This document shows, piece by piece, positions 8,967-30,456 of a DNA stretch of 64,000 nt. This DNA comes from an uncultured Alphaproteobacteria bacterium (GTDB lineage Bacteria; Pseudomonadota; Alphaproteobacteria; RUG11792): the NCBI GenBank assembly GCA_944390585.1, contig CALXQI010000009.1, positions 1-64,000 of the forward strand. Reading direction: 5' to 3'. Numbering within the stretch: the first letter of the stretch is position 1; each line of letters opens with the position of its first letter. The notes beneath the pieces are model-generated. The model was not told where the DNA came from, ran no database searches, and saw only the letters and a list, made by a program, of their open reading frames with translations. The position numbers and the translations under genes were made by a program.

Positions 8967-10697
8967 ATGAAAATTTTTATGTATATGCTACCATGTTGCG
9001 TTTGTATAGTAACAAATTCGTTTGCAACAGAATTGTTTGGAGGTAAAGAGATTCCTTTTGATACTGAAACACCTACTGCACCTAAAACATCTACTGTACC
9101 TATTAGTAATAAATCTAAAGGGTATGGAAAACAAAATGGAGCTGGTGCAGTGAAACAATATCCAGGTGTGCAGCGTAGATATTTAAGACAAGCGCAGACA
9201 AATAATAAAGAAGGTAATATATCAGAAGAGGATAATAGATTTGGAGAAGAGGAAAGCTATTATTCTGGGTCTGGATCTGGATCTGGATATTCTGAAGACG
9301 AGCATCAAAAAAAGTGTGTGATTTTTGGTAAAAATATTTTACTTGATATGGATAATAAAATTGATATGTCGATTAGTAAACTTAATGAATTAATAGGATT
9401 GTTGAACAAACGAAGAAGTGGCAATACTTTTCCACATGAAATTTCGCACCAGTTTGAGAAATTGTTCGAATTGCATCAAGACATTGTCGATAAAGTTGAT
9501 GGTTATACACAAAATGTTGAAGAAAATCAGACTACGATAAATGAAATACAGCAAGGAACAAAGTGGATAATAGAACATCTTGGACAATTTGAGAATGCGT
9601 ATAATGAGCCAACACCTACTCAAGCAATTCTTGAAGCTATACAAGGATCTATTGAGAATGCATATAAAGAGCAAATACAATCAATTTCCAAACTTATTGG
9701 AGAGCTTGAAGAGAAAAATGGAAATGATGCTAAAAAAGTGATTGGGAATTTGATAAGTAGTATACAAGGCATGAAAGATAGTATTGACGCTGTAAAGAGC
9801 GTAGTTGATGAAATACAACAAAAGACTAATGCTAGTAGTTTTGATAACAGCTTTTCTACTGTATCACGAGAAATAAGTCTAGAACAGAATAGTAACACTT
9901 CCGACAATGCAGATATTAAAGCAATACTAAAAATGGTTAACCATATAAATAAAAAACTTAGGAAACAGGAAGTGCAGAAAATAACACAAAATGCGGTTTC
10001 TGAAGTGATGCGTGGTAATGATTTCTTGAAGAAAATAAAGGACGAAATATATGATCAGGCGGGGTTGCAGAAGTTACGAAGTACTGTTTCTGATGTGCTT
10101 TGTGGTGATGATTTTTTTAAAAGAATGAAAAATGAAATGCTTCGCCGACCAGCTGAAAATTGGAGCAGTGATAAAGACATAAAGAAAAAATTGGGATACT
10201 TGGAAAAGAACAATCAGAATTTGGAAAAGTTACGTAAAGATTTGAGTAAAATGCGGCAAAATCATGATGAGATATCTAATAATGTTGCTGAATTAAACAC
10301 AAGTGTGAATAATATGGAGGAGAGTTTTACAAAGAATGCTGAGGAGTCAAATAATAGTATACGCAGTATCAATGAAAGTATTAATAGTGTATGTGGAGAT
10401 ATGTGTAAAGTAACACAACGTATTGAGAAAATGGAACAAGGTATAACCCAGATGGTGGAGTTATTGAACAAGCAAAGTGAAGCAAGTAAAAGTATTGAAC
10501 AACGTATTGATAAATTAGAACAATGTGTAAATCAGATGGTAGAGTTGTTGAACGGACAAAGTGAAGCAGTAAAAAATTTAGATAGAATTTTTAGTGAGGT
10601 GGAGTTTGAGTTTGTGCATCCTGAGCGTAAAACACGAAGGAAGAAATGTGCTGAAAGTGCTGGAGAGCGTAAAGAAGATGATGTTAGTAATGTGTGA
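8967..10697 (+). CDS. Secreted coiled-coil protein with internal repeats
   Basis: This 576-residue protein starts with a signal peptide (MKIFMYMLPCCVCIV, cleavage near NSFA). A low-complexity, Thr/Pro/Ser-rich stretch follows, then a Gly-Ser run around residues 97-105, and then long predicted coiled coils with many Glu, Lys, Gln and Asn. Two internal repeat pairs are visible. One pair is centred on SEVMRGNDFLKKIKDE and SDVLCGDDFFKRMKNE. The other is centred on EKMEQGITQMVELLNKQSEA and DKLEQCVNQMVELLNGQSEA near the C-terminus. The end is basic. It was not recognised as any family. The architecture suits an exported fibrous or surface protein that could contact the host. Its stop is followed directly by the kdsD repeat array. 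Confidence 0.7.
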   Translation: MKIFMYMLPCCVCIVTNSFATELFGGKEIPFDTETPTAPKTSTVPISNKSKGYGKQNGAGAVKQYPGVQRRYLRQAQTNNKEGNISEEDNRFGEEESYYSGSGSGSGYSEDEHQKKCVIFGKNILLDMDNKIDMSISKLNELIGLLNKRRSGNTFPHEISHQFEKLFELHQDIVDKVDGYTQNVEENQTTINEIQQGTKWIIEHLGQFENAYNEPTPTQAILEAIQGSIENAYKEQIQSISKLIGELEEKNGNDAKKVIGNLISSIQGMKDSIDAVKSVVDEIQQKTNASSFDNSFSTVSREISLEQNSNTSDNADIKAILKMVNHINKKLRKQEVQKITQNAVSEVMRGNDFLKKIKDEIYDQAGLQKLRSTVSDVLCGDDFFKRMKNEMLRRPAENWSSDKDIKKKLGYLEKNNQNLEKLRKDLSKMRQNHDEISNNVAELNTSVNNMEESFTKNAEESNNSIRSINESINSVCGDMCKVTQRIEKMEQGITQMVELLNKQSEASKSIEQRIDKLEQCVNQMVELLNGQSEAVKNLDRIFSEVEFEFVHPERKTRRKKCAESAGERKEDDVSNV

Positions 10698-11350
10698 GTG
10701 CACAATGTTGATGACATAAATGATGTAATGGTCAGTAATAATTTTAAGAATACGTATGTCTGAGATTGGGGAAAGAGTTGTAATGGATGAAGTTAATGCT
10801 TTATTTATATTTGTAAAGAATGTACCAATACATTATTGATGGTACAGATGGTATAATGGCCTGTGATAATAACCTATAAGAATACATATGTCTAAGTTGA
10901 GAGAAGAATTGCAATGAATGAGATTGATACTTTATCTATACTTGCAAAGAATATGCAAATACATAACGCACAATATTGATAGAATGGATAATAACTCTAA
11001 GAATATATCTGTCTGAAATGGGGAAAGAATTTCAATGAATGAGATTGATGCTTTATCTATACTTGCAAAGAATATGCAGATACATAACGCACAATGTTGA
11101 TAGAATGGATAATAACTCTAAGAATATGTATGTCTGAGATTGGAAAAAGAATTGTAATAGACGAGGCTGATACTTTATCTGTACTTGCAAAGAATATGCC
11201 AATACATAAACGCGCAATGTTGATAGCATGGATGATATAATAGTCAGTAATAATAACTTTAAGAATATGTATGTTTGAGATTGGGAAAGGAGTTGTAATG
11301 GATGAAGCTAATGCTTTATCTATACTTGCAAAGAATATGCCAATACATTT
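10698..11350 (+). repeat. Five-unit tandem array of the kdsD start region
   Basis: Five head-to-tail units of about 120-140 bases fill the gap before kdsD. The last unit is the real gene start. Each unit holds the upstream region, a ribosome-binding-site region and the first 15-20 codons. Start-codon positions are 10783, 10914, 11035, 11157 (mutated to ATA) and 11298 (real), so the spacings are 131, 121, 122 and 141. Upstream units encode short versions of the KdsD N-terminus, such as MDEVNALFIFVKNVPIHY, MNEIDTLSILAKNM and MNEIDALSILAKNM, each ending in a nearby stop. Only the last unit has the strong AAGGAG site; the others read AAAGAG, GAAGAA or similar. Units 2 and 5 keep TGnTATAAT, while units 3 and 4 have lost about 20 bases there. 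Confidence 0.85.
11233..11241 (+). promoter_or_regulatory. Probable kdsD promoter (extended -10)
   Basis: TGATATAAT sits 57 bases before the kdsD start codon in the last array unit. A matching TGGTATAAT occurs at 10849-10857 in unit 2. No good -35 box is seen at 16-18 bases, which is usual for extended -10 promoters. Confidence 0.45.
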
Positions 11351-12212
11351 TGATAACGCTATTGATTTAATATTAAAATGCACTGGGCGCGTGATTGTGG
11401 TTGGTATAGGTAAAAGTTGGCATATCTGTAAAAAAATTGCTTCTACTCTTGCCTCAACAGGGCAACCTTCCTTTGCTGTGCATCCTGGAGAAGCGCAGCA
11501 CGGTGATCTTGGCATGATTGTAAAAGATGATGTTGTTATATTGTTATCTTATTCTGGAGCATCAGCAGAATTATTTGCTGTAATTGATTATGCCGAATAT
11601 CTTGGTATAAAAACGATTTGCATTACTGGGAATAGTGAATCCTATATCGCTAAAAATGTTGATATTGCCTTAGTTTTACCTATGTTAAGAGAAGCTGGCT
11701 CCTTAACACACGCTCCAACAGTCTCTTCTACAATGATGTTGGCACTTGGTGACGCAATATCTGTATCTGTTTCTGAAAAACGCGGTTTTGCTGATGAACA
11801 GTTTAAAGTTTTCCATCCAGGCGGGGCTATTGGCAAGGAATTATTGAATGCTAACGACATCATGCGTGTTGGTAGTGATATACCATTAGTGCATACAGGT
11901 TGCGATATTGGTAGTGCTATGATTGCGATGTCGGAGGGGCATGTTGGTGCTGTTGGTGTTGTAACAGAAGATGGTGTACTGTGCGGTATTGTAACTGATG
12001 GAGATTTAAGACGTAACATGCGTAGTGATGTGTTTACGATGGAGGTTAATAAAATCATGAGCAAAAATCCCATCTGGGTTTCTGGTAATATGAGGTTGAA
12101 AGATGTTTTAAACTTGATGAATACTAATAAAATCACTGTTGTATTTGTGTGCGAAAGTGATATACCTGTTGGATGTATCCATATACATGATGTGCTGCGG
12201 GCATTAAAGTAA
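11298..12212 (+). CDS. kdsD: Arabinose-5-phosphate isomerase (KpsF/GutQ family)
   Basis: KdsD converts ribulose 5-phosphate to arabinose 5-phosphate, the first step of Kdo synthesis for lipopolysaccharide. The 304 residues contain an N-terminal SIS domain (GRVIVVGIGKS at 30-40, VHPGEAQHGDLGM at 61-73, FHPGGAIGKE) and two C-terminal CBS domains (from about residue 190; VTDGDLRR is clear). The frame extends nine codons upstream, but ATG 11298 has AAGGAG at ideal spacing and is chosen. One oddity is that the family's GKSGH reads GKSWH (Trp at 41), in the sugar-phosphate-binding loop. Its 5' end has been copied four times upstream. Together with lptC it suggests that some lipid A-Kdo structure is still made. 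Confidence 0.9.
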   Translation: MDEANALSILAKNMPIHFDNAIDLILKCTGRVIVVGIGKSWHICKKIASTLASTGQPSFAVHPGEAQHGDLGMIVKDDVVILLSYSGASAELFAVIDYAEYLGIKTICITGNSESYIAKNVDIALVLPMLREAGSLTHAPTVSSTMMLALGDAISVSVSEKRGFADEQFKVFHPGGAIGKELLNANDIMRVGSDIPLVHTGCDIGSAMIAMSEGHVGAVGVVTEDGVLCGIVTDGDLRRNMRSDVFTMEVNKIMSKNPIWVSGNMRLKDVLNLMNTNKITVVFVCESDIPVGCIHIHDVLRALK

Positions 12213-17715: not shown

Positions 17716-18079
17716 GACGTTTTAGCTACAACTTTCTGTGTGTAACATCAGCTGTATGGAAGAGGAGCTACATCCCTCATTGATGAGCATTAACCCAACT
17801 AACAATCGTCTTACTTTCAGCACCTAATACATTAAACATAAGACACCACAACCTCAACAGCTGTAACACGGCAGTAAAACAATATTGATTGTTATTTCTA
17901 GTTTCTTCTTGCTTCTGGTGCGCGACATCCATCGTGCAGCATGGGAGTCACATCTCTTATCGATATAAATCAAACCAGCTAACAACTGTCTCTTTTTCAG
18001 AACACAATCCACTAGACGCAAAACACCACAGTTTCAACAGCTGTGGCACTGTAGCAAAACAATGTTGATTGTATTATTT
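17716..18079 (-). repeat. Two decayed tandem copies of the rpsK 3' end
   Basis: Downstream of the real rpsK stop (18080) lie two more copies of its last roughly 35 codons plus about 100 bases of trailing DNA. The unit is 182 bases. The first copy ends at 17898 and still reads ISIRDVTPMLHDGCRAPEAR then RN and a TAG, against [20 protein letters not shown] in the gene. The second, ending near 17716, is more decayed (SSMRDVAPLPYS then a stop). Divergence increases with distance from the gene, which suggests successive outward-ageing duplications. Confidence 0.75.
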
Positions 18080-18469
18080 CTAATTTCTTCTTGCTTTTGG
18101 TGCGCGGCATCCATTGTGTGGCAGTGGAGTCACATCCCTTATTGATGTAACATTAAACCCAACTGTCTGCAAAGACCTAATAGCTGTCTCTCTTCCAGCG
18201 CCAGGGCCTTTGACAACCACACTAATGTTCTTCACACCGTGCTCTGCAGCCTTCCTGGCAGCATCCTCTGCAGCTAGTTGTGCAGCATACGGAGTGGACT
18301 TTCTAGACCCCTTAAATCCAACACACCCAGCTGAGCCACAAGAAATGGTATTGCCACGCTCGTCAGTTATCGTAACTATAGTGTTATTAAAGCTGGCGCT
18401 AATGTGCGCCACTGCATTAACGACATTCTTTCGCTCACGACGCTTGACTCTTTCTACACCTTTTTGCAT
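18080..18469 (-). CDS. rpsK: 30S ribosomal protein S11
   Basis: The 129-residue S11 of the small-subunit platform is easily recognised ([34 protein letters not shown], and [17 protein letters not shown] near the end). It follows rpsM by 66 bases. The usual next genes, rpoA and rplQ, are absent; instead there are degraded copies of its own 3' end. Start ATG 18469 is the conventional one. Confidence 0.97.
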
Positions 18470-28582: not shown

Positions 28583-29821
28583 TTAAAGTTTTGAAATTTT
28601 TAACATCGTTACTTGGTTACGTTGCCGTTTCATAATCTCAAATTTATAGCCAAATAGCATAAATACCTGCCCAGAATTAGGAATAATGCCAACTGAATTT
28701 ATTACCATACCTGCCATTGTTGCAGCAATATTGCACGGGAAATTTGTACCAACTTGCCTATTAAAATCTCGTACGCTGACAGTTCCATCTACTATATAGT
28801 CCCCATTTGCCTGCAGTCTTATGCATTCTACAGATGTTACATCATGCTCATCAGATATATCTCCAACAATCTCTTCCAGTATATCTTCAAGCGTTACTAT
28901 GCCCAAAAAACTGCCATACTCATCAACAACAACAGCAAAATGCTCACGTTTCTTTCTAAACTCTTGTAGCTGAGATAATAAATCAGTATTTTCTGTAATA
29001 AACCATGGTGCAACAGCTATATCTATTATATTTAAATTATCAAAACCGCTAATTTTAGCAGATTTTAACAAATCTTTAACATGCAATACACCAACAATAT
29101 TATCAATATTTTCTTTCCATAATGGAATGCGGGTAAATGGGCAACTTGTGATTTGTTCAACTATAGTTTTTGGGTCATCATCTGCACATAACATTGTAAC
29201 GTTCTTTCTATGTACCATAATTTTGCCAACTTGCACAGAACCAAGATCTAAAATACTACTAAGCATCGCTTTTTCTTGCATAGAGTCATTATCAGTGCCT
29301 TTATGTAGCGCTATTGCTCCTTTTAATTCATCAAGATCAGAATCTTCTGATTTCTGGTTTTTTGGAAGAATAAATGCCGATATTTTAGCAACAATAATAT
29401 TAAACGGCAATAAAATAGTAAGTATAAATTTTAAAAACTTTGCGGATGGAAGCAAAATTTTCTCAGGGGTTTTGATAGTAAACATTTTTGGCAAAACTTC
29501 CACAAATAATACCATAAATATACTTAAAATTATGGGAAAATAAATAATGGCCGTTTCACCAACGTATCTTACACTTATAATTGTTGTAATAGTTGCTGCT
29601 AAGTTATTTAACAAGGTATTACAGAGCAAAATAGAACTTATAACAAATTCTGCATTTTCTTGTAATTTGCAAACAGTAATGGCATTTTTATTACCGTCAG
29701 TAGCTAATTTATACATTTTTGGCTTGGAGTATGCAGTCATTGCTGTTTCACAAGCTGCAAAATACGCAGATAACAACAAAATAGAGGCTAAACATATTGC
29801 TAATACAACATTAGAAATCAT
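28583..29821 (-). CDS. CNNM/CorC-type membrane protein with CBS pair
   Basis: The 412-residue protein has the CNNM (DUF21) membrane domain (residues 1-160, with FAACETAMTAYSK and VEVLPKMFT), a CBS pair (about 200-320, with VDEYGSFLGIVTLEDILEEI) and the CorC/HlyC C-terminal domain. Relatives (CorB, YfjD, YtfL) are linked to magnesium/cobalt export. It is a longer relative of the soluble gene at 52173. The start overlaps the stop of the upstream repeat protein by one base. Confidence 0.88.
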   Translation of the reverse strand: MISNVVLAICLASILLLSAYFAACETAMTAYSKPKMYKLATDGNKNAITVCKLQENAEFVISSILLCNTLLNNLAATITTIISVRYVGETAIIYFPIILSIFMVLFVEVLPKMFTIKTPEKILLPSAKFLKFILTILLPFNIIVAKISAFILPKNQKSEDSDLDELKGAIALHKGTDNDSMQEKAMLSSILDLGSVQVGKIMVHRKNVTMLCADDDPKTIVEQITSCPFTRIPLWKENIDNIVGVLHVKDLLKSAKISGFDNLNIIDIAVAPWFITENTDLLSQLQEFRKKREHFAVVVDEYGSFLGIVTLEDILEEIVGDISDEHDVTSVECIRLQANGDYIVDGTVSVRDFNRQVGTNFPCNIAATMAGMVINSVGIIPNSGQVFMLFGYKFEIMKRQRNQVTMLKISKL

Positions 29822-30456
29822 TATCTACTCCTATCAGTTGCAAAATCATCTATTGCCCCATCCCCATTTTTACCTATTTTCCAGGTATTACACTGCGGTG
29901 TAACATCTGTTTTACTTCTAACATTTACATCATTGTCGCGTGGTAATACTTGTATAACATCTGGTTTTTTTGCATGTGTATTTTTGATCCTCTTTTTAAT
30001 TTCTTTGCGTAAACGTTTAAATTCTTCGCTTGTAGTGTCAGTAGTTCTTAGTTTTTCTATCATTTGCTGAATCTCTTCAAAATCATCTTGCGTGATTTCT
30101 GCCGTTTCAACTTTGTCTTCTAACATAGTTTCTAATTGTTTTATAACAGAATTAATCTTATTTACTTCATTATTACATTGCAATACAGGGGCTATGTTAG
30201 TCTTTTTTGCATTTGCATTATCTATTCTTTTTTGAATTTCTTTGTATAAATGTTTAAATGCCTCGCTTGTAGCATCAGTAGTTTTTAGTTTTTCTATCAT
30301 TTTCTGAATCTCTTCAAAGTCGTCCTGCGTAATTTCTGCCGTTTCAACTTTGTTTTTCAACATAGTTTCCAATTGTTCAATATCAAGATCAGCATTTTTT
30401 GCAAAACTTGTAGAGCACGCGCAAAAGCTACATAACAAAATCTTTAAATAGCACAT
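29821..30456 (-). CDS. Secreted protein with a 79-residue tandem repeat
   Basis: The 211-residue protein has a signal peptide (MCYLKILLCSFCACSTSFA) and two near-identical helical repeats of 79 codons each (237 bases). Both contain QLETML, VETAEITQDDFEEIQ, MIEKL and KEIKKRI-like segments. The repeats are similar at the DNA level too, so the duplication is recent. The C-terminal 35 residues are not repeated. No family was recognised. It shares the coding unit with the CNNM/CorC-type gene (one-base overlap). Confidence 0.65.
   Translation of the reverse strand: MCYLKILLCSFCACSTSFAKNADLDIEQLETMLKNKVETAEITQDDFEEIQKMIEKLKTTDATSEAFKHLYKEIQKRIDNANAKKTNIAPVLQCNNEVNKINSVIKQLETMLEDKVETAEITQDDFEEIQQMIEKLRTTDTTSEEFKRLRKEIKKRIKNTHAKKPDVIQVLPRDNDVNVRSKTDVTPQCNTWKIGKNGDGAIDDFATDRSR

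Follow-up and report, generated by a model that had tools for sequence, protein, structure and literature searches.

A five-unit tandem array of the kdsD start region in an alphaproteobacterial genome with many non-coding tandem arrays

Intergenic tandem repeats of Ehrlichia ruminantium were reportedly the subject of work by Collins et al. in 2005 and by Frutos et al. in 2006.

Active expansion and contraction at tandem repeats of the non-coding regions of this species is described in one account (PMC10710844), slipped-strand mispairing is invoked for its repeats in another (PMC3287509), and its intergenic tandem repeats are also treated in a third (PMC7343930). The intergenic VNTR loci of Wolbachia, which were picked for their size variation among strains, consist of tandem units that expand and contract and that carry indels within the units (PMC3287509).

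Here we describe a tandem array at the start of kdsD in a window of 64,000 nucleotides (positions 1 to 64,000 of contig CALXQI010000009.1) from an uncultured alphaproteobacterium. As in E. ruminantium, the genome is small, AT-rich and alphaproteobacterial, and it contains many non-coding tandem arrays. In contrast to those of E. ruminantium, however, the units described here have diverged, and the likeness is one of anatomy, known here from sequence, rather than of proven activity. The array also resembles the Wolbachia VNTRs in having intergenic tandem units with indels inside them, but its unit carries part of a gene and it is known from one strain. The genome probably lies outside the Rickettsiales, because VirB4, a marker of the Rickettsiales-type T4SS, found no match in it and a TssM-like gene is present. 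Our analysis indicates that the kdsD array is real, correctly located and of an already known kind.

Anatomy of the array

The array consists of five head-to-tail units (131, 131, 121, 122 and 141 bp) that together span positions 10698-11343. The features of the locus are as follows.

8967 to 10697, plus strand: gene for a secreted-looking coiled-coil protein; its stop is followed immediately by the array
10698 to 10828, plus strand: unit 1, which adjoins the stop codon of the coiled-coil gene
10829 to 10959, plus strand: unit 2, a KdsD 5' fragment whose frame is shifted by the loss of 1 nt from the leader
10960 to 11080, plus strand: unit 3, with the 1-nt deletion of unit 2 and without an 18-bp segment
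11081 to 11202, plus strand: unit 4, without the 18-bp segment
11203 to 11343, plus strand: unit 5, the live copy, continuing into the complete kdsD
11271 to 12212, plus strand: kdsD, for an arabinose-5-phosphate isomerase of the KpsF/GutQ family (one SIS domain, two CBS domains); translation probably starts at ATG 11271, with ATG 11298 as the other candidate

A reading made from the sequence only had proposed a five-unit array in which the 5' region of kdsD was locally duplicated several times, to be given up if the units proved no more alike than random AT-rich DNA. Both proposals are supported: in a pairwise alignment of the five units, identities range from 76.0 to 89.3%, and the pair scores of 101-171 all lie far above those of 300 dinucleotide shuffles (means 9-19, maxima 30-52). 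The head-to-tail copies are thus more alike than chance, and the unit runs across a gene boundary with one copy (unit 5) joined to an intact gene, as in gene-edge tandem duplication. The letters reported at the ATG/ATA positions of the units (10783, 10914, 11035, 11157 and 11298) and the restriction of AAGGAG to the last unit are also correct, and the reported loss of a TATAAT region from units 3 and 4 corresponds to an 18-bp ATGATATAATAGTCAGTA-type segment missing there.

All five units contain a leader block, TAATAA..AAGAATATGTATGTCTGAGATTGGG. From ATG 10756, unit 1 encodes part of the KdsD N-terminus in frame (MSEIGERVVMDEVNALFIFVKNVPIHY), with a stop just beyond the unit, and unit 4 retains an intact short KdsD-like frame from ATG 11130 (MSEIGKRIVIDEADTLSVLAKNMPIHKRAMLIAWMI). 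Unit 3 comes close to being a direct copy of unit 2 once the register is shifted (10874-10994 versus 10995-11115, 89% identity, spacing 121). The unit junctions (ATACAT-AACGC-ACAATG) are similar in units 3, 4 and 5 and, read from the sequence, can be converted into one another by small deletions.

An assembly artefact, for which the draft state of the genome (16 contigs) might speak, is extremely unlikely because the copies show 11-24% divergence as well as indels; stutter would give neither these differences nor the unequal lengths and junctions. The other arrays of the genome, moreover, have different sequences and units. A search of the same genome found no second place for the array DNA. 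An open frame of 152 aa runs antisense across units 3-5 and the kdsD start (window 11057-11515, minus strand); it is probably due to chance, since in-register repeats prolong open frames.

The kdsD locus of many relatives has an RNase D-like upstream neighbour, identified by visual inspection of its C-terminal sequence, whereas the coiled-coil gene and the array occupy this place here. The coiled-coil gene itself contains an in-frame 84-bp repeat in two copies (10415-10574), and in-frame repeats are also seen in other secreted-looking proteins of this genome (L024:1-961, L031:5468-6148).

The start of kdsD and the state of the upstream copies

The window gene scores 254 bits with TIGR00393 (cut-off 203.7), and its SIS domain and two CBS domains were found, which identifies it as a KpsF/GutQ (KdsD) isomerase. 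That a single copy of the start is functional, as the sequence-only reading had suggested, agrees with the fit of the encoded peptides to the family (PSSM), which is highest in unit 5 (35.5 bits) and lower in unit 4 (29.0), unit 1 (21.1), unit 3 (15.6) and unit 2 (12.8). The same reading had placed the start at ATG 11298, with AAGGAG as its ribosome-binding site. Another ATG, at 11271, lies in frame nine codons upstream, and the KdsD proteins of relatives from the same family, as in EAKRVIxEEAxALxxLAxxLP, align without gaps with the window frame from this position (MFEIGKGVVMDEANALSILAKNMP). With the nine codons included, the protein scores 280.5 instead of 276.1 against the KdsD model (+4.4 bits) and 238.0 instead of 235.9 for GutQ. 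The fit of the nine-residue extension to the family profile is beaten in the live copy by 41 of 20,000 same-base shuffles (p ~0.002), and in units 1 and 4, which are mutually non-independent, by 35 and 40 of 20,000.

Because this region is coding in relatives, the roles of AAGGAG as a ribosome-binding site and of the ATG/ATA as a start codon are doubtful. In the extended frame, the AAGGAG of the live copy falls within K-G-V codons belonging to the N-terminal helix. The ATG to ATA change of unit 4, previously taken for the loss of a start codon, is a substitution at a variable internal residue. The missing SD motif at 11271 decides little, as in this genome an SD-like motif is present ahead of only 17% of clear starts, versus 6% of internal ATGs. 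From the sequence evidence we lean towards 11271, rather than 11298, as the position at which translation of the live copy would begin.

A near-invariant basic residue of the family has changed from R to G in the live copy only, while units 1-4 still encode it in the matching frame. This change (AGA to GGA) is the same one that made AAGGAG, five bases before ATG 11298. It is conceivable, although we hold it to be rather doubtful, that the substitution created AAGGAG, that the KdsD start moved nine codons downstream and that the dead upstream copies preserve the ancestral N-terminus. If this were true, the array would document, as a fossil, how the start site shifted in a genome with continuing tandem duplications, and the possible shift in the live copy may be the most interesting point of the array.

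In the upstream copies, the extended frame is open from the ATG in units 1 and 4 and is broken between leader and ORF in units 2 and 3 by the shared 1-nt deletion. Over the 16 codons after ATG 11298, differences per site range from 0.03 to 0.25 (N) and from 0.05 to 0.27 (S) among the non-independent pairs, a comparison that gives no hint of the mini-ORFs being under purifying selection. Divergence is broadly similar among the intergenic, leader and ORF parts of the units. The frameshifted state of units 2 and 3, the lower family fit of units 1-4 and the similarity of S and N differences point to relaxed constraint on detached copies, in a small sample. In this small sample, the upstream units look like partial gene copies decaying without constraint.

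The upstream units had also been proposed to act as decoy or attenuating starts, and they could be viewed more broadly as an extended regulatory leader tuning kdsD. The open frames from the ATG in units 1 and 4 and the similar leader kept by all units would fit such a role. However, two of the four upstream units are frameshifted, and nonsynonymous changes show no deficit. Folding of the unit alignment gave 19 pairs, none with compensatory change, and an unfavourable covariation term; an Rfam search matched two tRNAs only and no family in the array. Neither the selected short frames nor the RNA structures expected of a translational decoy or attenuator were thus found, and similar arrays occur at the 3' ends of six genes, where no start exists. 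We consider this role very unlikely. The recurrence of the block TAATAA..AAGAATATGTATGTCTGAGATTGGG in each unit might alternatively suggest that several promoters or operators have been retained as tandem binding sites for regulation. This, too, is improbable: the block partly overlaps KdsD coding DNA, its identity among units (77-90%) is no higher than that of the adjoining ORF part, and the promoter scan remained near chance, without an excess of sigma-70-like matches (8 versus 5.3 +/- 2.6 in shuffles), a result that also bears against the decoy or leader role. A regulatory reading of the array is without support, and the array exemplifies a general process and is no special switch.

Origin and history of the array

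The homology of the units, the decay of the copies relative to the family and the presence of other arrays in the genome, all observed directly, are best explained by recurrent local tandem duplication that was tolerated at gene edges and followed by neutral decay, an explanation that we regard as very probable. The duplication mechanism, the neutrality and the order of events are what we infer. The founding step would have been a tandem duplication of the intergenic region together with some 26-33 codons from the beginning of kdsD, and such a duplication across a gene start can be tolerated because the downstream copy stays complete. Unequal exchange or slippage between copies would then have raised the number to five units, the clearest later event being the 121-bp step that relates 10874-10994 to 10995-11115. 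The likeness of the junctions in units 3-5 suggests one founding duplication with later exchange between copies. The upstream copies would subsequently have decayed by substitutions, by the frameshift and by the 18-bp deletion, each of the latter two being common to neighbouring units (2 and 3, and 3 and 4, respectively).

Some observations stand against parts of this explanation. Despite their divergence, units 1 and 4 have retained KdsD-like frames that are open from an ATG; the codons are few, so that weak selection is possible, and the dN/dS comparison covers 16 codons in non-independent pairs. Moreover, kdsD has the sole array found to carry a gene start.

No repeats were found upstream of kdsD in the loci of 19 relatives, two of which have little upstream DNA, and the array therefore appears to have arisen in its own lineage. 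A kdsD search of genome contigs returned one distant Clostridia match only, which is uninformative on copy number.

Local tandem duplications thus seem to be tolerated at the gene edges of a compact, host-dependent-looking (symbiont-like) genome, where the arrays preserve, as a kind of sequence fossil, older gene starts and ends. Calls of start codons and ribosome-binding sites from repeats need to be checked against relatives.

Other tandem arrays in the genome

We surveyed 421 kb (48%) of the 0.88-Mb genome, which is in 16 contigs, at a threshold of E 1e-5 or better. This sample contains 14 non-coding tandem arrays, the kind of multiplicity known from E. ruminantium, with best-pair identities of 62-93% that would reflect a spread of array ages. 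Six arrays carry gene 3' ends (rpsK, rluD, ntrX, murB, prfA and the tssM-like gene), and kdsD is the only gene start found in an array. The rpsK array lies within the window.

17734 to 18168, minus strand: rpsK 3'-end array, three units of about 180 bp that hold the 3' end of the gene and downstream DNA; rpsK (ribosomal protein S11) at 18080-18469

The other 3'-end arrays are located in sampled stretches at L030:1078-1513 (rluD), L032:491-863 (ntrX), L027:10384-10762 (murB, with E 1.3e-8 in a regional search), L059:16016-16607 (prfA) and L057:14351-14798 (tssM-like gene). Three intergenic-looking arrays have units that are 90-93% identical (L063:19489-19982, L056:4715-5159 and L058:15175-15569); judged by this identity, they would be the youngest and are candidates for copy-number variation between strains.

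The relatives yielded 2 non-coding arrays in 343 kb versus 14 in 421 kb here (exact rate test, p = 0.010), a contrast that is conservative but rough, given that the sample of relatives mixes many draft genomes and that thresholds of 1e-4 (relatives) and 1e-5 (own genome) were used. Tandem duplications of 100-250 bp are frequent in this lineage and are more often kept at gene 3' ends. The number of arrays suggests that the lineage could serve, besides E. ruminantium, as a second system in which to study how arrays arise and decay. Loss of RecA or MutS was considered as the cause of the many arrays and rejected, both genes being present in the genome; their presence makes recombination between copies possible.

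Duplications inside genes would survive mainly in frame, and those across a start or end would survive because they leave one copy joined to the intact gene. The purely coding repeats of the sample have periods mostly divisible by three, as expected if out-of-frame duplications within genes are removed. An in-frame internal duplication is also seen in the window at 29923-30400, within an ORF on the minus strand (29821-30456), with a spacing of 237 (79 codons) and 78% identity.
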